The position numbers were made by a program, and so were the translations under genes. From assembly GCA_002189035.1 (NCBI GenBank), contig NEEC01000010.1, positions 868,001-932,000 of the forward strand: a stretch of DNA of 64,000 nucleotides. Reading direction: 5' to 3'. Of the stretch, positions 1-20,260 are shown piece by piece (position 1 is the stretch's first letter; every line of letters begins with the position of its first letter). Origin of the DNA: Utricularia gibba. Its lineage: Eukaryota > Streptophyta > Magnoliopsida > Lamiales > Lentibulariaceae. The notes under the pieces were generated by a model, which worked only from the letters and a program-made list of their open reading frames with translations, did not search any database and was not told where the DNA came from.

Positions 1-1432
1 GAGCTCGAGGAATAGGCCCAGTGTATCTTTTCCTTGATTCTGTACTGGTTCAATGTAACCTGAACTCCAATCCCAGGCTCTCAATTCATCAAAGACCACG
101 TCTCTGCTAATTCTTATTTTCATGCTCGACAAGTCCAATACCCTGTATCCCTTGGTTATATCACTGCATCCTAGATGGACACCTACTAGTGCTTTCCTGT
201 CTAATTTCCTTCTTCTTTGTTTTGGGATGTGAGTATAGCATACACAACCGAAGATGCGGATGTGATCAACCCGTGGAATTCTCCCATGCCACATCTCAAA
301 TGGGGTTTTCTTTTCGATCAGTGCCTTGGTGGGCAGTCGATTCAGGAGGTACACGGCGGTGTTGACTGCTTCACCCCAATAGGTCATTGGTACGGTTTTC
401 TCATACATCAGACATCTGGCCATTTCAATTATAGTTCTGTTTCTTCTTTCACTTACGCCATTCTGCTCGTAGGGTGCAGTAAACTGGTGAATAATCCCTT
501 CTCGTTCACACATTTCAGTGAACTCATACGGTATGTATTCACCACCGTTATCAGATCTAATGTACTTAATTCTTTGCCTGCTTTGGTTCTCAACTTGAGC
601 CTTGAAGGCTTTGAAACAGTTCACCACTTCTGATCTGCTAGGGATGATAAATATCCAGCAGTATCTAGTGTAATCATCTACGAAAATTAAGAAATACCTA
701 TTTCTTGTAGATGTTGAGATGTTTATGGGTCCATATACGTCACTGTGGATTAGCTCTAGCTTCTGGGTGGTGATCCAGGTGCGTTTTCCGAACGGTCGTC
801 TAGAGAGTTTACCGATTTGGTAGATTTCGCATATCCTATGGTCTTGTTCCAGTTTTGGTATTCCCTCCATCAGGTTGGATTTTGACGCATGAGCCAGTGA
901 GGAGTAGTTCACATGGCCAAACCTTTTGTACCAGAGTGAGGCATCATCTTTAGCTGCAAAACAGGTGTCAGTTAGGTTTTTATCAGTTTGAAATCTTATA
1001 GGAAAAATTCTGCTTTCCATCTTGACTTCAAGAAGAAGTCTTCCAGATGATGAATATATGCTACAAAGAGCTCCATTGAAGGTGACGTTCAGCCCTTTAG
1101 AGGTAAGCTGTCCTACACTCAGAAGGTTGTGGGAGGCTTTGGGTACGTAGTATACATCTTGTATCTTTAGTATGTGCTCGCAAGTTTCAAGTTGTACAGT
1201 CCCTATCCCATGTGCTCTTATTAGTCGTCCATCAGTGACTTCTATTGATTTCCCATTCAGTGGCTTGTAGCTTGTGAATGCGCTGAATTTGTGAGTTAAG
1301 TGGTTGCTGCATCCACTGTCTATAAGCCACGTTCCTTTGTTTGTGATGTCGTTAGTGATTGAGAGTATGTGTCTTTGTGCAGCTTGTAGATATCAATGAC
1401 TTCCTTGGCATCAGAAAAATAGCATACAGAGT
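1..1432 (-). pseudogene. Copia pol fragment: protease, GAG-pre-integrase and integrase
   Basis: The reverse strand encodes, in order, a retroviral-type protease motif W-L-I-D-S-G-C-S-N-H near 1310-1340, a pre-integrase region with W-Y-K-R-F-G-H (about 930) and C-E-I-C (about 830), the integrase core with H-S-D-V-Y-G-P (about 740), D-N-G-G-E-Y near 540-560 and the downstream E in V-S-E-R-R-N-R-T, then the region ending at the left edge. These are the Ty1-copia signatures. A frameshift lies just before the protease motif (about 1345-1360). No reverse transcriptase is present because the window ends first. Inactive as seen here, unless the frameshift is a sequence error. Confidence 0.88.
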
Positions 1433-2318
1433 TCAATGCAGTAGAGTTTGATTCTTTCTTGTCATCATTTTTCTGTGCGAATTTTTCTTCAAATCTCTTC
1501 TTGCATACCCTTTCGATGTGGCCCTTCTCCTTGCAGAAGTTGCAGATCTTATCTGGGTTATAGAAACAACTCGAAACTGGATGGTTCCTCTGCTTGCAGT
1601 GTGGGCATTCAGGGTATGCTCCTCGTTTTTCAACTCTTTTTTGAGACTTTGCCTGGAAAGCTTGCTCAGTTTCGTCATGCCTTTCATATGTCTTCTAAAC
1701 TTGCTCAAAGTTGTAGAGTGTGTCCAGCAATTTTTCGTAGTTGTATGTGGTTAGAAGACCAGTTGTGGATAGCATCCCAATGCATGCTCTGAAGTCCTTT
1801 CCCACACACTTAAGGATTTTGTCTTTAACTCTACCATCGTCAACAGGTTGTCCCAGTTTTTTTAGCCGCTTTGCCACTGCACTCATAGAGAGCGTTAAAT
1901 CACTGATGGACTGACCTGGTTTCAGGCTGAGGTTGTTGAGAATATGCCACTGCTTTGCTATTTCCTTTTGTCGCCTTTCTGTTGTCATGGCATAATTTTT
2001 CGCAGTATGTTCCAGGCTTTCTTAGGAGATCGCAGTCCAGAATGAGATCATAGGCCTCATCAGTCATGGCCAAGGTAAGTGCATGCATTGCCTTTTTCCT
2101 CTTTTTCTGTGCCTCTTTTCTGCTGCAGTTTCCATATCTGAAGAAGAAGATTTTCGTTCTTTTGATTGAGCCGTATCCGCTTGCTCTTCTTCTTCATTTT
2201 CTTCAAACAGGTCCCAGAGGTCCAGATTGTCTAAATGGACAGACATCTTGTCCGCCCAGGCATCGTAGTCACCTCTGCCATCGAATGTAGGAGGAGGCAT
2301 GAAGTATGATGAGGCCAT
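1433..2318 (-). pseudogene. Copia gag with double zinc knuckle, frameshifted
   Basis: The gag starts at the ATG at 2318 (M-A-S-S-Y-F-M-P-P-P), a usual copia gag start in which the fold begins with F-D-G-x-x-D-Y-x-x-W. The reading frame then changes near 2085 and again near 1990, and a later segment (1988-1695) carries the I-S-D-L-T helix region. Two knuckles of the form CX2CX4HX4C lie at about 1520-1605 (C-P-H-C and C-N-F-C). The knuckles normally bind the element's RNA in virus-like particles. At least two frameshifts make this copy a pseudogene. Confidence 0.85.
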
Positions 2319-2413
2319 GGAGTGTGACTTGCTAAAGATTGGTAGGATCTGATTTGTAGCCGAACTTGAATCTATGCTTGTGATTTCTCAAGGAAATCCC
2401 ACAGCTGTCACCA

Positions 2414-2835
2414 TGTAAGAAGTCTGTAGCTCACTAACTGGGAGCCTTAGTGCTCGAGAGATTAGGCAAGAATTCTGGAAGAAAACTGTATAAAAAAATA
2501 TATTTGGTTACATATTTGTCTTTCTATTTATAGACCCCTTTTTTGTGACCGTTGAGCACAGGAATGCTTTGCAGGTTACCGTTGCCGTCAATCGGGGCCA
2601 TCTTGGATTTGGTCCTTCTCTTGGGCACAGACTTGGGCTGCTTACGAAGGGCCCGCATGCAATCTTACACCATTTGAAGCTGGTATTTGGCCCAGCATCT
2701 GCTGATTCAGCCATCAGTTCTTTCCCATCCCCTTTCGTTCTTCTTCCTCGTCGCACACAGCATATTCAAACAGCACTTCAGAATCTTCAGCGGGTCTCAT
2801 AAAATTGTCCAAGATTAGCTTATCATCAGCCAACA
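2414..2835 (-). repeat. Putative 5' LTR of the copia element
   Basis: On the minus strand the segment begins TGTTGG and ends CTTACA, so it has the TG...CA ends of an LTR. A TATAAATAG core promoter lies at 2525-2533 (minus). Directly downstream of the end comes TGGTGACAGC, which resembles the initiator-Met tRNA primer site of plant copia elements but differs at several bases. Length about 420 bp suits copia. The partner LTR is outside the window, so the right boundary is inferred from the terminal dinucleotide only. Confidence 0.6.
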
Positions 2836-3693
2836 ATGATTTCCATCATGATCATTGATGAGGAGGGTATGCAATTTTACGTGTTTTTCAAATTTGAGTA
2901 TTGCTTTTGAATGATATGTTCTAGGTTCCTAGCGGCTTACAAGGGGTGCGCCTGCATCGTATAGTCGTGATCCTCGAAGTTATCGTCAGGTTACTCCGAC
3001 GATGACATCGATGTGGGCGATGGGGAGCCATCCCATGATATGCCACCTCAGATTCATCCTATGCACCGGGATCAAGAGGTGGATGAGTGGAGGAGAAAGT
3101 ATATGGAACGCGATGAAGCGCTCCTTCAAGAGGCGGGCACGTAGTGAGGGTCTCCGAGTGAGTGTAGAGGGAGCATTTCTTGTTGGTTGTCTTCGCATGC
3201 TACTCGTTTCGTGATTCCTTGTTTTTTTCGGTTGGGCTGAATCTTGCTCACATTTTTTTCTAATAAATTATGCTTTACTACCAATGGGTTGCGATGGAGG
3301 TGTCATGGTGAGAGGATATGGTGAGGGACCTTCGTACGCCCCGTTCCTTGCTGCGAACAAGCCGTCATGGATCACTGCGTGTCGAGGACAAGTAGTTTGG
3401 CGAGGGAGCATGCACCCAAACACATGTCCCTAGCCCATCTCCTTCAATGAGGTGACACCCGGGGCATGGTAGGATGTCGGTAATGAACTAGCGTCTAGGG
3501 TGCAGGTTGCGGGTCGTTACATTGTGGCGCTGCATAAGCAAATTCGCAACAGTAAATCTGTGTATTGGTTCATCCTCTTCAATACAAATCTGTGGGTTTT
3601 TGCAGGTACATGGTGAGTGAATTCGAATTCTGATATTTCGACGAAAACCCATACTTCAATTTAAGTCAAGAGTTCTTATTTTTTGTTTCGCAT
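2836..3693. other. Interval without a recognised gene
   Basis: No complete gene is seen. A short open stretch at about 2995-3145 (plus) would encode an acidic, charged segment (S-D-D-D-I-D then R-D-Q-E-V-D-E-W-R-R-K-Y) that I do not recognise; it may belong to the Harbinger relic that follows. At about 3475-3525 a segment recurs, inverted and diverged, near 12370-12410 and 61060-61110, so it is repetitive DNA. Confidence 0.4.
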
Positions 3694-4560
3694 ATGATGG
3701 AGTCGGGTGATTTTTTTCCGAAAATTGCAGTAGGTTGTGCGTTGCTTATTCAGGCTGTTGCAATGGTTTCAAAGAAGATTATTTTGGCTGCCCTTGCTGC
3801 GGCGCATTGCGTTGGTCAGCACTTATGTGTTATGCGAATTATGATTGTTATAATGTTGCATTTCTACTGTACACCAACCGATAGGAGAATTCGGTTCTCA
3901 TACCGAGAAAAGATATCGCGACAAATAGAGCATTTGACTGCTTTGTTATTTGATTCAAGGAGTGCTTGTCTTGAAAACTTACGATTAAGTGTAGATGTTT
4001 TCAACAAGTTGTGCTATGTTCTTCGAAGTAATGGTAGACTATCCACTTCAAGGTATGTCAATGTTCCAGAGTAAGTTGCATTGTTTTTGGGTATTTTAGG
4101 TCATCACAGGAAAACAAGGCAACAAAAATTTGAATTCATGCGAAGCAGCTGATCAGTGTCCAAATATTTCAATGTGGTATTGTCAACGGTGCTGTCATTG
4201 CACCAAAATTTACTTAAGACACCTATGCCAATTGATGTTTTTGATCCTAATTCTAGCTTCAGATTTTTCAAGGTATGCAAGGAGATTTTTCATTATAGTT
4301 GTGAATTTGCAATGTGTATTCTGCATGCTGTAATTTTCTGCTCTATTTTTCAGAATTGCTTGGGCGCATTAGATGGTTCATATTTCTAGGTGGAGGAATC
4401 GTAAAGGAATCGTGTCCACTAATGTGCTAGGAGTGTGTGATGAGAAGCTCAAGTTCATCTCTTTGTTGTCCGGTTGGAAGGTGTCCGCTGCTGATAGCAT
4501 GCTGCTTGATGTAGTTTGTCGACAAAGAGCATTCACTGTATGCAAAGGTAAGTGCTTACA
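3694..4560 (+). pseudogene. PIF/Harbinger-type DDE transposase, degenerate
   Basis: The conserved N-terminal plant Harbinger block is readable (R-E-K-I-S-R-Q-I-E-H-L, about 3905-3940, ending V-N-V-P-E), followed after a stop by L-G-I-L-G-H-H-R-K. Later come N-C-L-G-A-L-D-G-S-Y, which holds the first catalytic Asp (about 4355-4385), and V-L-G-V-C-D-E with W-K-V-S-A-A-D-S, which holds the second Asp (about 4425-4500). The third catalytic residue (Glu) and the C-terminus are missing. Several stops and frame changes break the gene, some of which could be introns. The same family of protein is encoded on the opposite strand at 18566-19659. Confidence 0.85.
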
Positions 4561-4595
4561 ATGTGTATAAGTCCATAGTTATGAGTGACTTTCAT

Positions 4596-5019
4596 GCATC
4601 CACAAAACCGACACAAGCCTCTTGTCTTCAAGGATTTGAGGAAAGTATGGATGGCATATCCGACTTACGACACTCAGAATACGCTACTCATAGATGACTC
4701 ATCGGAGAAGGGATTCATCAACCCAGTGAGTTATAGTTCACTAATATAGCTTTTATATTAACTTTCTTTTTCTCACTTTCATTTTATCTTATAGCGGGGA
4801 AATTTCATATTTCCCTATACTTGCGACTACATGGATTGTCACGACAAAGCACTAGAATTCGGGGCTACTTATGGATTTCGTATTTGGTTGGGCGCTGCCG
4901 ATGATGTCCCATCGTATGTGGAGCGATGCCGTGTCGGACAGCCGTGGATTGACAAATGCAATCCACACTTTGCTTACTATTCAGATGTAGTTAATGCCCT
5001 ACTCAATGGAGGAGAATGA
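4596..5019 (+). pseudogene. FCP1/NIF-type (HAD-like) phosphatase, C-terminal half
   Basis: Two exons (about 4596-4725 and 4795-5019) joined by a GT...AG intron read in one frame to a TGA. The first contains N-R-H-K-P-L-V-F-K-D-L-R-K-V-W and N-T-L-L-I-D-D-S, the Asp-Asp motif III of FCP1-homology (NLI-interacting factor) phosphatases. The second holds I-F-P-Y-T-C-D-Y, W-L-G-A-A-D-D-V-P-S-Y-V-E and R-V-G-Q-P-W-I, typical of the C-terminal part of plant proteins of this family. The N-terminal half with the nucleophile Asp is absent. It follows a Harbinger transposase on the same strand, the arrangement seen again at 16226-19659. Confidence 0.75.
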
Positions 5020-14369: not shown

Positions 14370-14460
14370 TTTATCAGCACTCGATCCAAATAACATCGAA
14401 GGAATGAGTGTAATAAGATTTTAAAATAAAAAAATATGCACTCAATCCAACTAACACTTA
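14370..14460 (-). repeat. ~65-bp sub-repeat units, left of the Harbinger element
   Basis: Two partial units with CACTCGATCCAAATAACA and CACTCAATCCAACTAACA words, the reverse complement of the units at 20480-20700. The unit is interrupted at 14460 by the Harbinger insertion and resumes at 20118. Confidence 0.65.
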
Positions 14461-14640
14461 GGGCGTGTTTGGGTGCTGGGCTTGGCCTAAACACAGGTTT
14501 AGTTTATTTGGGTTTAGGTAACCCGGTTTTATGGGCTTAGGGGGTGTAAATCTTGTTTGGTTGATGGGTTTACATTATTTGGGTTTAAATGAACCCATGT
14601 TTTGAGTGAATTTTACGATTTACTTGTTGTAAGTGCTCGG
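14461..14640 (+). repeat. Left subterminal region of the Harbinger element with TIR
   Basis: The TIR is followed by repeated GGGTTTA/TAAACC words (for example GGGTTTAGG, GGGTTTACA, GGGTTTAAA). The right subterminal region (about 19930-20117) has the same words, in inverted sense. Such subterminal repeats are the usual transposase binding sites. Confidence 0.7.
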
Positions 14641-14691
14641 TGTAGGTGCTTTGTTCTTGCTGTTTTCTTTCCTCCAACACAGATTGCAGGT

Positions 14692-15729
14692 ATGCATAGT
14701 CCAATCGTGGTGGAAGACTCTCACAAAAAAACGAAACGCACCTGGAAGCTAGATGAGGAGAAAGACTTGTTGCACGCTTTGAAGTAGATAGTGAAAGAAG
14801 GCTGGAAAATTGAGAATGGTTTTAGGGGTGGGTATCACCGAGTGTTGGAGACAGAGTTCTTGAAACTGCACCCTACAACCGACATCCGCACACACCCGCA
14901 TATATCTAGCAAGGTGCATACCTTGAAAAAAGACTACTACCTTCTTGTAGATTTTTTATCAAGGGCGGGCACCGGTTTTAGTGAGCTGACCTAATCGTAG
15001 ATGCAAATGAGGAGGTTTAGAAGGAGATTGATCAGGTATGTATGCCATGTTCTCGCGGTGTTATATTCAGTGCTTACCGTGTTATTATGTCAGCACGCAC
15101 CTAGGCTGCGCTTGCTAAGACACAAAGCGTGGCCATATTACATGGAGTGGCAGGAAATCTTTGGAAAGGATCGGGCAACAGGAGATAGAACGATGAGCTA
15201 TGTAGTCGCGACCAGGAAGAGGAAATTCACGGAAGATGTTGGGGAGAATCTGGAAGTCTCTTCAGATTGCCCTCTGTACCCAGATAGCACTGGACAGGAT
15301 ATGAACTTCTCGTATGCTGACCCAATTGGTAATGCTACGGAGGGTGTGAATCTCACGTCTAGTAGGGACTTCGAGTCACACAACAGCACCGACTCGTCAC
15401 GGTGGACTGGACGAAGCGGCAGGGGACCCAGGGGAATTGATGATGATGTGCAGTTCCTTAAAGAAATGAAGGAGCTGAACTTGCGCACATGTGAAGAGCT
15501 ACGTCACTTGGGGTTAACAGTGGTGCAGCAAGCGCGGGAGTTGGCGGACAATCAGCATCAAGCAGGGGAGATCATTAGAGATATGCCGTTGCAATTAACT
15601 GCCATCGAACATTTTACCATAGCAGAGACGATTAGTTCCAACCCTGCGAGGTTGCGCTACTTCCTTACCTCCAGCGACTTTGAAAGAGAGCTTATTGTGC
15701 GTGGTTTAGCATCCGAATGTAGATCTTAA
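14692..15729 (+). pseudogene. Harbinger ORF1, Myb/SANT-like (trihelix) DNA-binding protein, one stop
   Basis: ATG at 14692 opens M-H-S-P-I-V-V-E-D-S, then R-T-W-K-L-D-E-E-K-D-L-L-H-A-L. A TAG at 14785-14787 interrupts the helix region; beyond it come E-G-W-K-I-E-N-G-F-R-G-G-Y and S-S-K-V-H-T-L-K-K-D-Y-Y, the usual Myb_DNA-bind_3 signature of plant Harbinger-type ORF1. Further stops near 14992-15000 precede an apparent GT...AG intron (about 15035-15098), after which H-K-A-W-P-Y-Y-M-E-W-Q-E-I-F-G-K-D-R-A follows, also typical. The C-terminal half is helical and ends at a TAA at 15729. In this superfamily the partner of the transposase binds DNA and directs nuclear import. Confidence 0.82.
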
Positions 15730-16225
15730 ATCTGTTGTGCGGTGCTTCGCCTTATGTTGGACTCATGGACTAGATGTATTTCATCTTCTAATCATCCTTT
15801 AAGCAAATATACGGTATTTCACATGAAAATATAGGCGAAGGATGACTACATGTAACTGGTATGAGCACTGCGAAGGGTTCCTCGTTGGTATGAGAACTGC
15901 AAAGGGTAGACAGTGTTCTAACTTCGTATGTGGAAGCATCACGTATGAACAAGCGCGGTGATTCGTTGTTGAGCACTCTTCCGCAAACGCGGTGCTGCAA
16001 CTACCGCCACATTCTGTGCGGTGCTATCGAGTAGTGATGGACTAGCACCACGTTGGTGTTTCATATTACGAAGCACCACGTTTAGACACAAGGTTTCAAA
16101 TCCAGTGATGGTGCAGGATGTTACAACATGCGGTGCCACCGCAATCAGTGGTCGATCAAAAACTAATAAAGTCAACATACGATAGTTCACGTAAGATCCA
16201 TGCAATTTCAAAGGTACATCATCGA

Positions 16226-17156
16226 TCACACAATACTCTTGTAATGCTTCCACAATGGGTGTTCCTCATCTATTGGACGTTGACCTACCCGACGGAGATC
16301 GACGTGCGTGGGTACATCCATTACGTCAATGAGAGCTTCCAAGAACGACCTAATATCTCCCCCTTGAACTAGGGAACAATCATTGACCGTGGTGTACTTG
16401 AAGGTGGTTGGGAATATGGCATTTTCAGGCTGTCCAATGAAAGTAAACAATCATTGGATGCAAGATGGTGGAGAATGAGCGCGACCAGAAACTCACCGGG
16501 TTGTGTAGTGACTTGTACGATGCATCATCGATGAGTAGTGTATTAAGACGGTGATATTTGCCCTTGAACTCAGTGTTGGCGCCCCATACATGATTCAAAA
16601 GCTTAAGCTTAACCGTGTTGTTCCTGTTGTCGTGCACCGGATAACCTGTGTCCACACACCTTGATCCATCCCATTGGAAGACAACCTTGCTGGCTGCTGC
16701 AGGCCCTAGTAACCACTGAACCACATCATGCAATTGTTCACTAACACATGTTGTAAGAAAAAAGAAAGGTCAGCAGGAATGTGGATCCCCTTGCCTGCAA
16801 GGTGGTCAATCTTACCGTCCCCTTGAAGACCAGATGGCGACATCAAAGTGTTCCATGCAAAACTGTATCAACTCACGTGCACTTGGTCGAATATACACTA
16901 CAACCATAATAAATAGTACTGACATATGCACCAAATATTAAATGCATATCAAATACACCGCATTACCATTTCGCTCGTAGATGACGGCATCCGGCTTCGG
17001 CGCTCCCCACCTGACTTCGTGAGGATACACAATGTACGCAAGTACGCCATTCACGTCAAATATTAACAACTTTCGTGGTGGGAGCTGTGTTATCACTCGA
17101 CACTCCACCATATGGCCAGCTTTGTTCATATCATGCAAGCCAACCACAGAGTTCAA
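16226..17156 (-). CDS. FCP1/NIF-type phosphatase carried by the Harbinger element
   Basis: Four stretches in order on the minus strand cover a whole FCP1-homology domain. About 17156-16970: K-L-L-I-F-D-V-N-G-V-L-A-Y, the motif I loop, with the first Asp kept and Asn at the second position. About 16905-16815: I-R-P-S-A-R-E-L-I-Q-F-C and D-V-A-I-W-S-S. About 16733-16495: F-Q-W-D-G-S-R-C-V-D-T-G, K-L-L-N-H-V-W and N-T-L-L-I-D-D-A-S (motif III). About 16437-16226: I-F-P-T-T-F-K-Y, F-L-E-A-L-I-D-V-M-D-V-P and H-P-L-W-K-H-Y. The family dephosphorylates Ser/Thr, e.g. on the RNA polymerase II CTD; the Asn in motif I is shared by many plant NIF-like proteins and its effect on activity is uncertain. 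Exon borders are approximate. The upstream stretch 17451-17227 is basic-acidic and may be its N-terminus. Confidence 0.75.
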
Positions 17157-18565
17157 GATTCTTTGCGTACAATCTCTTCACTTCGATATACTTTGTAGTG
17201 GCAGCACCGCACCCATCGTCGTGTGTCTAGATCGGTGTTGGCCCATCCGTGTTGCCCCTGACTTCTGGTTGTACTTCTTCATCCTCTTCATGGGTCACCT
17301 CCTCAGGATCTTCATTCGTACTCCTACGTTGTCTACGGTGTCGAGGGGTTCCAAACCACGGATGTTGTGTCCTAGGGGCATTGACAAAGGGGGGCCATAC
17401 GTCCTCCAGTGGGAATACCTCTATGCCTACAACGACAACAGCAAAAAGCATGAGTACTGTTAGAATATCCGAAGTAATTGTTTGTGATCACTTGATGGGT
17501 GTCCCACATTCTCTGAGACTATCAACGCTGTTGGTCATTCTGGAGCGGTGGGTGGGTATACCCATATAAAACTAGTCCACCAATCATCATATGCGCTTCT
17601 TACGTCTATAACCAGAACCACTCCTGGTTTTCCATGAATCGAGTAGTGCGGACTTCCCTTACGTTGCACACAAACAGAAACCGCAAAGAAGATGCATTTC
17701 CTGGGGTATATCCTCCTCTTCACAGATGTGCAGAAATGCGAGTACGTGCGCCACATAACGTGGTGTGAGGTGGGAGAGTGGGATATGGAGTGCAGCAAGT
17801 ATCTGCACCAAGAAAGGGGGCGGGGGCAGTCGCAATCCACACCGAAAGTGCTTGGTGCTTACGGCGAATCCCAATGCTCCAACTCTGGATGGGGGTTCGC
17901 CGTCGGCCGTTTCACCCGATAGTTTATCCCACATAGCGTAACCGTCGGGAATTGAGAAGCGGGCAAAGGTTCCTATCGTCGCGACCCTATTCTAGAGAGG
18001 TTGTCAACGAGATTGTCTTCACGGTGCTGTTGCGCGGTTGCTGAAAGGGTGCAGTTGGATGGGCGAAATTAATGAAGTTGTTTTGGAAAGTGTTCAATGT
18101 CAGGCGCCTTTATTGTGCGCAAAGGGGTATTAATAGCGCTGGGCGGTTGTCAACCAAATGGCGCATTGTTGTACTACCAAATGCCCTCACTACTATGCAC
18201 CAGCGTCACACTCATCTACTTTTTAAATTTTGACAGCACCGGATACGATGAAACACGTGGTGCTGCTAATAACTTTGGTGTCATACAAGCCTCTGTAGCA
18301 CCTCGTCTAAAGATCGCGGTGTTGGCTCCAATGATCCACCTTGTGGTACCATGTTACCCATGATAAGACATGACACTACGGTACAATCCCAACATTTTTT
18401 GCAGCAACCACCAAATACGATGGAAACAGGTGTTCAAGTTGGAGTATCAACTAGAGATTAACTTGTTGTGACTTTGCTGAGCAAATCCAGTACAAACGAC
18501 ACGATAGGTTCTGAATGGGAATTTAGGAAAACCACTAGCATGACAATGTGTAAAGCAGTGCTACA
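17157..18565 (-). other. Region between phosphatase and transposase in the Harbinger element
   Basis: Open stretches on the minus strand at 17934-17659 and 17451-17227 could be the phosphatase N-terminal exons: the second is R-R-Q-R-R followed by an acidic run (E-D-P-E-E-V-T-H-E-E-D-E-E-V). I recognise no domain in them. 17935-18565 shows nothing convincing; opposite-strand open frames here are taken as shadows. Confidence 0.4.
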
Positions 18566-19659
18566 CTAGGGGCGTTTGTGGGATTCCAGCCACTTGGTGT
18601 ACATCCGCTCAGCTTGCTGGTCACGCCACCTATTCCATGCCTGATTGCCTTCGGCAGATGTCGTGATGTCTTCTCTTTCACTCGTGTCCCCAGTTTTATC
18701 CTGAAAGTCCAATAGGACCTGATCCTCCAGGGGATCGACCACCATCTCCTTTCGAATGTGGTTATTGAGCAAAGCACATGCCAATACAATGCGGTTCTGT
18801 ATGTTTACCAAATAGTAGCTAGCCGTCCATAGTATACCCCACTGCATTTTCATCAAGCCCCAAGCTCGTTCGATCACATTTCTGGCTGATGCATGCCACA
18901 TGTTGAATAGCTCCTTCGCATTCTGAGGTGCTCCATTTCCGTGTCCCCACTCCTTCAAGTGGTAACGGACTCCACGGTATGGTGCCAAAAAGCCCTCCCT
19001 ATTGGCGTATTCATTGTCACATAGGTAATATGTTCCTGTGTCATCACGTATACATGATGCATAAAATCATTGGAATCACATGCGCACAGACTAAACAAGT
19101 GAAATACCTGGGCGTACACGGAAGCCGTCGGATCGTGAGAGTGCATCGTTTAGCACTCGACTATCTGCAGCAGACCCCTCCCAGTCAGCAAGCACATATA
19201 TAAATTTCATGTGTTCATCACATACACCCAAGACGTTGTTGGAGACACAGTCTCGGTTCTCCTCCCATAGACATCCTTCTGCACCCACATTTTTTTATGA
19301 TGACCTAATATTCCTAAAAACATACAAACCATCTCTGGAACCATTACATATTTTCCAACTTTTAAGTTAGAACGATTTTCTAATAGGCTACATAAAATAC
19401 CCAAGGCATCTCGGTTGATTCTTAAATTCTCAATGGATGCGCTATTCACATCACTCACCAACCTACTAATATACTCAACTTGTCTAGGAATCTGGTGTGT
19501 AAGTGAATACCTGCGTCTCAACCTATATCCCCTACGGTATTTCCTCCAATATAAGTATACTAACACATTCATCTGTAGTATTCGGTCAAAACTGCAGCTG
19601 CCGCACTCAAGATGACATGACCCTCCGTGAAAAAATCCATGTCCCCTCAAAAGTCGCAA
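18566..19659 (-). pseudogene. PIF/Harbinger transposase, internally deleted
   Basis: From 19659 the reading has the N-terminal block I-P-R-Q-V-E-Y-I-S-R-L-V and Y-V-M-V-P-E-M-V-C-M-F-L-G-I-L-G-H-H-K-K, then shifts to N-N-V-L-G-V-C-D-E, D-W-E-G-S-A-A-D-S-R-V-L (second catalytic Asp). A GT...AG intron (about 19034-19112) is followed by G-T-Y-Y-L-C-D, F-L-A-P-Y-R-G-V-R-Y-H-L and A-R-N-V-I-E-R-A-W-G-L-M-K (catalytic Glu), ending at a stop at 18566. The ~80 residues that should hold the first catalytic Asp (L-G-A-L-D-G) are missing, so the enzyme cannot be active. Confidence 0.88.
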
Positions 19660-20117
19660 AAATCAAGCAAAATAAATCCACACACATAGCACCACAGATT
19701 CTGAAATTGGAAATTCACAGATAAAAACCCACTATTTGGTGCTGCCGTGCTTGGCCTCTCGCGGTGTTACCGTGGACCAACCCACTAAGAACAGAAAGCA
19801 TACTTACCGAAAGACCCACTCTTTTTGCGCTCAAAGAACACGCGACGCCACCGGCAAATCACGAATGTAGATCTGGGTTGTTGATCTGCGTTCAAATGTA
19901 GTTCATGCGAGGGCAAAAGTGGAAGTGCCGGGCTGGGTTTAGCTAAACCGACCCCCCCCCTCCCCCGGGTTTAGCTAAATCCAGCTCCACGGGTTCCCGC
20001 CCAGTTTATGATCAATAGGTGAGTTTATTTTTACCGACCTGAAACCCACGAACCAAACGTGGGTTTATGTTTAAACCCACGCCGCAAACCACCTAAACCC
20101 AACAACCAAACGCACCA

Positions 20118-20260
20118 TTAAGGATCGATTGATGAGTAATACAAATTTAAAATACGGGCATGGGTTAACTATAACCCACACCATGCGATTTCTTAAAGAC
20201 ACCACGAAATCACATACGGGCGTATGTTATGGCTAATCCACGCTCATAGTTGACAAAGTG
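20118..20260 (-). repeat. Family-A terminal unit right of the Harbinger element
   Basis: TTAAGGATCGATTGATGAGT and AATACAAATTTAAAATAC complete the sub-repeat interrupted at 14460; CACATACGGGCGTATG follows, the family-A motif. Confidence 0.6.

Follow-up and report, generated by a model that had tools for sequence, protein, structure and literature searches.

The FCP1/NIF-like gene found in a PIF/Harbinger element of the window (the whole stretch of 64,000 nucleotides that was analysed) is very probably the C-terminal half of a transposon-borne composite gene, in which a TRP28 domain (Pfam Transposase_28, PF04195), a linker and an FCP1/NIF-like domain are joined and kept as a stable passenger. 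In several PIF/Harbinger clades this composite gene, referred to here as TRP28-NIF, was observed as a third gene that comes after the transposase and faces a convergent Myb ORF1; a hAT-like family likewise has it downstream of the transposase. Its NIF part has diverged with the transposase at the level of clades, under purifying selection. Textbook plant PIF/Harbinger elements, both PIF-like and Pong-like, carry two genes, a transposase and a Myb-like ORF1.

The window element and its composite gene

The element at positions 14461-20117 was delimited by the TIRs GGGCGTGTTTGG and TGGTGCGTTTGG, with the 3-bp TSD TTA, typical of PIF/Harbinger, on both sides (14458-14460 and 20118-20120). The PIF transposase (18569-19662, minus strand) was equally typical, matching Pfam DDE_Tnp_4 at 2e-17 (63.7 bits, cut-off 24.8). 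The Myb/SANT-like ORF1 (14680-15729, plus strand) is convergent with the other two genes and its match to Pfam Myb_DNA-bind_3 (E 0.038) was below the curated cut-off; a relative of this convergent ORF1 is also present at locus L122. The element had initially been described as complete. Nevertheless, an internal deletion has removed the region of the first catalytic Asp from the transposase, the TRP28 exon has a frameshift near 17690 relative to locus L024, where the frame is open, and ORF1 has a stop at about 14785. The window copy is hence a decayed, non-autonomous member of the TRP28-NIF elements.

The third gene sits between the transposase and ORF1, on the minus strand. Its N-terminal part is the TRP28 domain (17683-17859), recognised by Pfam at 5e-9 with 36.7 bits against a gathering score of 26.2, and matched at 3.6e-7 in the genome search. 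The linker exon or exons (17227-17487, minus strand) contain a PPFVNAPRTQ... motif, similar in clades B and E, and an acidic stretch. Four NIF exons follow on the same strand: exon 1 (16953-17075) with motif I RKLLIFDVNGVL, in which the Asp nucleophile is kept and the second Asp is replaced by Asn; exon 2 (16815-16901) with YIRPSARELIQFCMEHFDVAIWSSR and the Ser of motif II; exon 3 (16491-16754) with the Lys of motif III and the LLIDD of motif IV; and exon 4 (16241-16441) with the C-terminal region. The FCP1/NIF domain (PF03031) reached E 4.7e-11 and 43.1 bits against a gathering score of 21.8. The nearly whole NIF domain that the initial annotation had placed downstream of the transposase on its strand was thus confirmed, in four exons, while the TRP28 half with which the gene begins had been overlooked.

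The order was the same at loci L024, L056, L060, L061, L067 and L070: TRP28 first, then a linker whose motif resembles PPFVNAPRTQHLWCG, and finally NIF. At 60 of the 149 TRP28 matches in the genome, a NIF cluster followed within 2.5 kb on the same strand, with a median gap of 0.97 kb; random shifts gave a mean of 0.8 and a maximum of 4 such arrangements. In the open-access literature nothing was found on TRP28 fused to NIF, on NIF in PIF/Harbinger or hAT elements, or on a phosphatase in PIF/Harbinger elements; the novelty of the gene, judged from this literature and one genome, is provisional.

TRP28 itself is known from another class of elements. Nearly every Retand Gypsy element with recent activity has TRP28 genes in antisense orientation; the domain, predicted to bind DNA, was stated to be of unknown role, lacked similarity to other TEs and was reported without a phosphatase (PMC11963269). 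The same Pfam domain, PF04195, thus forms the extra gene in Retand (PMC11963269) and here, but here the carriers are DNA transposons, the gene is in sense with the transposase, and TRP28 is fused to an FCP1/NIF-like domain.

Association with PIF/Harbinger and hAT-like transposases

The contigs of one genome (100 Mb) were searched with protein queries; the Pfam NIF profile missed the window copy in this search, since the matching proceeds exon by exon. At least 141 clusters of related NIF sequences were obtained in the 100 Mb. A PIF transposase was present upstream, on the same strand and within 6.5 kb, in 49 of the 141 clusters (median distance 2.0 kb), the window relic at 3694-5019 being counted among the 49, whereas 500 random shifts produced a mean of 2.1 and a maximum of 7. 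The closest PIF transposase was arranged differently in only four NIF clusters. On the other hand, no same-strand transposase was found upstream of 78 of the 141 clusters among the matches listed, which counts against a stable third gene; the 141 clusters include many fragmentary NIF copies and some host genes.

The association was also followed from the transposase side, where the counts are lower bounds because the best 150 candidates were scored per search. Among transposases of 75% identity or higher, TRP28-NIF was located downstream of at least 17 of 21; for those at 65-74% the count was at least 8 of 11, and for those at 50-64% at least 14 of 43. A clade B element (C1:5811727-5819656) has its genes enclosed by the TIRs GGCCTCGTTTGTTAGGTGGGTTTAA and GGCCTCATTTGTTAGGTGGGTTTAA and by the TSD TAA. 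Like plant PIF/Harbinger elements in general, those studied here combine a DDE_Tnp_4 transposase, a putative Myb/SANT-like ORF1, TIRs and a 3-bp TTA or TAA TSD; unlike them, clades A, B and C have TRP28-NIF as a third gene. Clade F represents the plain two-gene form, with a convergent Myb ORF1 beside the transposase at C2:2097453 and TRP28-NIF absent from this locus (L122), so PIF transposition does not require the gene. Clade F branches separately from A, B and C in the transposase tree, save for one copy (C328), which belongs to B; the one-clade test gave p 0.058 with the C328 copy counted in F. Given this position of F, a single gain of TRP28-NIF with F outside is possible but not proved. 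Short contigs repeated stretches of larger ones with equal scores (matches on C199/C414 and C41/C451); they are probably redundant assembly pieces, slightly inflating the copy counts.

Clade E revealed a different carrier. Its NIF lies downstream, on the same strand, of a transposase (L111 and L112) whose reading frames were recognised by eye as hAT-like, hAT transposases being marked by a BED-like zinc finger and a C-terminal dimerisation region. When the L111/L112 protein was used as the query for the family, a hAT-like transposase was found upstream of NIF in 14 clusters, compared with a random mean of 1.5 and a maximum of 6. Inverted termini CTAGAGGTGGGTTCG were read from two copies jointly, with subterminal DNA rich in GGTTCGGTTCG. 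These data do not support the notion that the gene is specific to PIF elements.

Two hAT-like copies are 91-96% identical across the transposase, TRP28-NIF and a second TRP28 gene. This second, separate gene, with a coiled-coil-like C-terminus and without NIF, lies downstream of TRP28-NIF in the hAT-like family and was seen at L070, L111, L112, L116, L119 and L120 (C2:1787100-1801500 and C414:467000-478900).

The 60 TRP28-NIF sites comprised 28 after a PIF transposase, 10 after a hAT-like one and 22 copies for which no transposase was found upstream. A further TRP28-NIF lineage, with LDSNSLL as motif I, was observed at L068, L069 and L113 (C255:499961 and C413:3399795); no transposase was found within about 4 kb upstream in this lineage, as looked for at C255. 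Upstream of L068 and of C98:2697617 no recognisable PIF or hAT transposase was detected.

Co-divergence, selection and origin of the NIF part

For the comparison of the two genes, transposase exon 3 and the NIF exons were taken as separate sequences. In the NIF tree the TE-borne clades A, B, C and E are united in a single clade (98/97). A wider group that also includes the L and R types is separated from four host NIF genes (100/99). The transposase clades A, B and C mirror the NIF clades (Mantel r 0.90, 0/2000 permutations). Within clade A the pairwise distances of transposase and NIF were uncorrelated, with little signal in decayed copies, and this fits near-star amplification followed by decay. 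Pooled dN/dS was 0.47 in clade A and 0.48 in clade B for NIF, and 0.34 and 0.49, respectively, for the transposase. Between PIF clades, 0.83-0.99 of the synonymous sites differ as against 0.30-0.35 of the nonsynonymous ones; the A-E value in the between-clade comparison was 0.21. Among themselves the three hAT-like copies gave dN/dS 0.86 (three pairs), so the recent copies of this family look relaxed.

The initial annotation had presented the gene as a stable third component of PIF/Harbinger elements, and this claim stood, with 49 copies where about two are expected by chance, matching clades and purifying selection. It had named three outcomes that would speak against it. Two were not encountered, as the TE copies group away from the four sampled host genes instead of each approaching a different one, and purifying selection on NIF was detected. 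The remaining one, that most related elements lack the gene, does not apply to the close clades but is partly true farther out.

The introns of the NIF part bear on its source. Two of them have positions common to clades A, B and E and to the host genes L062 and L014: intron 1, of phase 1, which precedes the RP of exon 2, and intron 3, of phase 0, which comes after the NP that follows LLIDD. The position of intron 2 (phase 2, just after WSSR) is common to A, B and the host. Because these positions are those of host NIF genes, they indicate that the putative source of the NIF part was captured host genomic DNA and not a retrocopy. Host genes with the DVNGLL motif were found at L062, L014, L058 and L020; they resemble the transposon copies in the DxN of motif I, the Lys and the DD, and L062 and L014 also in intron positions, but no TRP28 domain was seen in those examined. 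We infer that an ancestral element would have taken up genomic DNA of a host NIF gene, that the captured NIF would have been joined to TRP28, and that TRP28-NIF would later have passed between PIF and hAT elements.

Several other explanations of the association were weighed against these data. If a Pack-TE process had picked up fragments of host NIF genes as neutral passengers, introns at host positions would be expected of the captured genomic DNA, and decay, as seen in the window copy and many others, would also agree. However, strand and order are constant in the 49 PIF copies, the NIF copies belong to a single clade and not to many, they match the transposases at clade level, and their dN/dS is close to that of the transposase; order, clade match and dN/dS largely refute chance capture, which we consider very unlikely. 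That most NIF copies are domesticated host genes, selected at the level of the host and lying near transposons by chance, appears more improbable still. L062, L014, L058 and L020 do look like host genes, but the TE copies group in a clade apart and are numerous, with stops and frameshifts, and those of clade B lie within the same TIRs and TSD as the transposase.

It is also quite unlikely that TRP28-NIF is a separate mobile element or module, repeatedly inserted downstream of PIF and hAT-like transposases. Its presence in two superfamilies, the 22 copies with no transposase found upstream and the occurrence of TRP28 alone in Retand LTR elements (PMC11963269) would favour such a module. Nevertheless, order and strand are fixed, the NIF and transposase clades match, and the clade B genes are enclosed within TIR/TSD ends, so that one early transfer into hAT is a better fit than repeated insertion. 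The preferred reading remains that of a composite gene carried as a stable passenger.

Catalytic residues and possible role

The second Asp of motif I is the general acid in this enzyme class. The first, nucleophilic Asp was kept in 18 of 18 clade A copies, 10 of 10 readable clade B copies and 3 of 3 clade E copies. The second was replaced by Asn in 17/18, 10/10 readable and 3/3 copies of the same clades and in all four DVNGLL host relatives, whereas a canonical host SCP-type gene has D at this position. Accordingly, motif I of the window copy, DVNG, departs from the DxDx(T/V) of active FCP1/SCP phosphatases. Most copies also retain the Ser of motif II, the Lys of motif III and the motif IV DD. 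Two clade C copies, L091 and L107 (C98:2912213 and C451:5264158), have Tyr in place of the nucleophilic Asp (FYVNG).

UBLCP1 is an active DxD phosphatase. The closest solved structure was UBLCP1 (3shq; profile E 5.3e-8), with a match that spans motifs II-IV and begins after motif I; its active DxD class contrasts with the DxN found here.

Since Asn occupies the position of the general acid, a slow enzyme or a phospho-binding pseudo-enzyme is more likely than a typical phosphatase, as judged from the residues. Phosphatase activity of the NIF domain is doubtful on the same grounds, and so is the label of phosphatase used initially. An active phosphatase, timing transposition by dephosphorylating the Myb partner, the transposase itself or Pol II, would be compatible with the nucleophile kept in clades A, B and E, with the Lys and DD mostly retained and with UBLCP1 as the best solved match. 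Such a role is nonetheless unlikely in view of the Asn in nearly all readable copies and the four host relatives, the D of the canonical SCP-type gene and the loss of the nucleophile in the two clade C copies.

A role as an accessory factor is a speculative possibility that we regard as somewhat unlikely as formulated here. The product would be a nuclear protein with a TRP28 tether and an FCP1-like phospho-binding pocket. TRP28, a predicted DNA binder, would tether the protein to element DNA or chromatin, and the pocket, which keeps the Asp nucleophile, Lys and DD but has Asn at the general-acid position, would bind the phosphorylated tail of Pol II or another phosphoprotein, or process it slowly. 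Expression of the element would thereby be favoured or silencing evaded, without the action of a fast phosphatase. Because the gene is present in two superfamilies whose transposases are unrelated, a partner that is tied to a single transposase is less likely.

VANC, an accessory gene of the VANDAL MULEs, provides anti-silencing for a DNA transposon. TRP28-NIF, too, is carried by DNA transposons and maintained by selection without encoding a transposase; the proteins are unrelated, and an anti-silencing role of TRP28-NIF is a conjecture. More broadly, and tentatively, TRP28-NIF may be a portable regulatory module that confers a common advantage, silencing escape or control of Pol II, on different transposon classes. 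Such a module would unite a TE-specific DNA-binding-like domain with a host-derived pseudo-phosphatase in PIF and hAT-like elements; Retand has TRP28 by itself. A host-derived regulatory protein now seems to be standard cargo of unrelated mobile elements, as one selected accessory gene, from a host CTD-phosphatase-like domain, serving two transposon superfamilies. The TRP28 of Retand retrotransposons gains a new context, and it becomes testable whether accessory genes of this kind affect host transcription or silencing.

The relic at 3694-5019

A second instance of the arrangement had been proposed in the window at 3694-5019, where a transposase fragment and a phosphatase fragment with a proper intron do follow each other on the plus strand. 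The former is a clade B PIF transposase fragment (3600-4599, plus strand), and it is an exact inverted duplicate of C304:965688-966687, with 100% identity on the opposite strand. Some ten other clade B transposons align to 3600-4599 at 85-91%, in most cases with the match stopping at 4599. The piece from 4600 on is an R-type NIF fragment (4600-5019, plus strand) that includes the conserved phase-0 intron; its matches, at 72-76%, lie at other loci. The inverted duplicate, the sharp end at 4599 and the different loci matched from 4600 mark the order in the relic as a duplication or rearrangement junction, by which the two fragments were joined. The exact duplicate and the junction at 4599/4600 rule out the relic as an independent instance, and the counts made across the genome take its place as evidence.

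The exact or near-exact inverted duplication comprises C304:866475-872599 and C304:965688-971816, about 93 kb apart, and part of window positions 1-4599; the TRP28 matches at C304:866475 (plus strand) and 971637 (minus strand) mirror each other with equal scores. This duplication, with one breakpoint at 4599/4600, reflects a recent rearrangement or else an artefact of the assembly. Elsewhere, at L114 (C98:2693200-2696150), Gypsy polyprotein-like and coiled-coil frames of Retand-type resemblance were observed adjoining an R-type NIF fragment.
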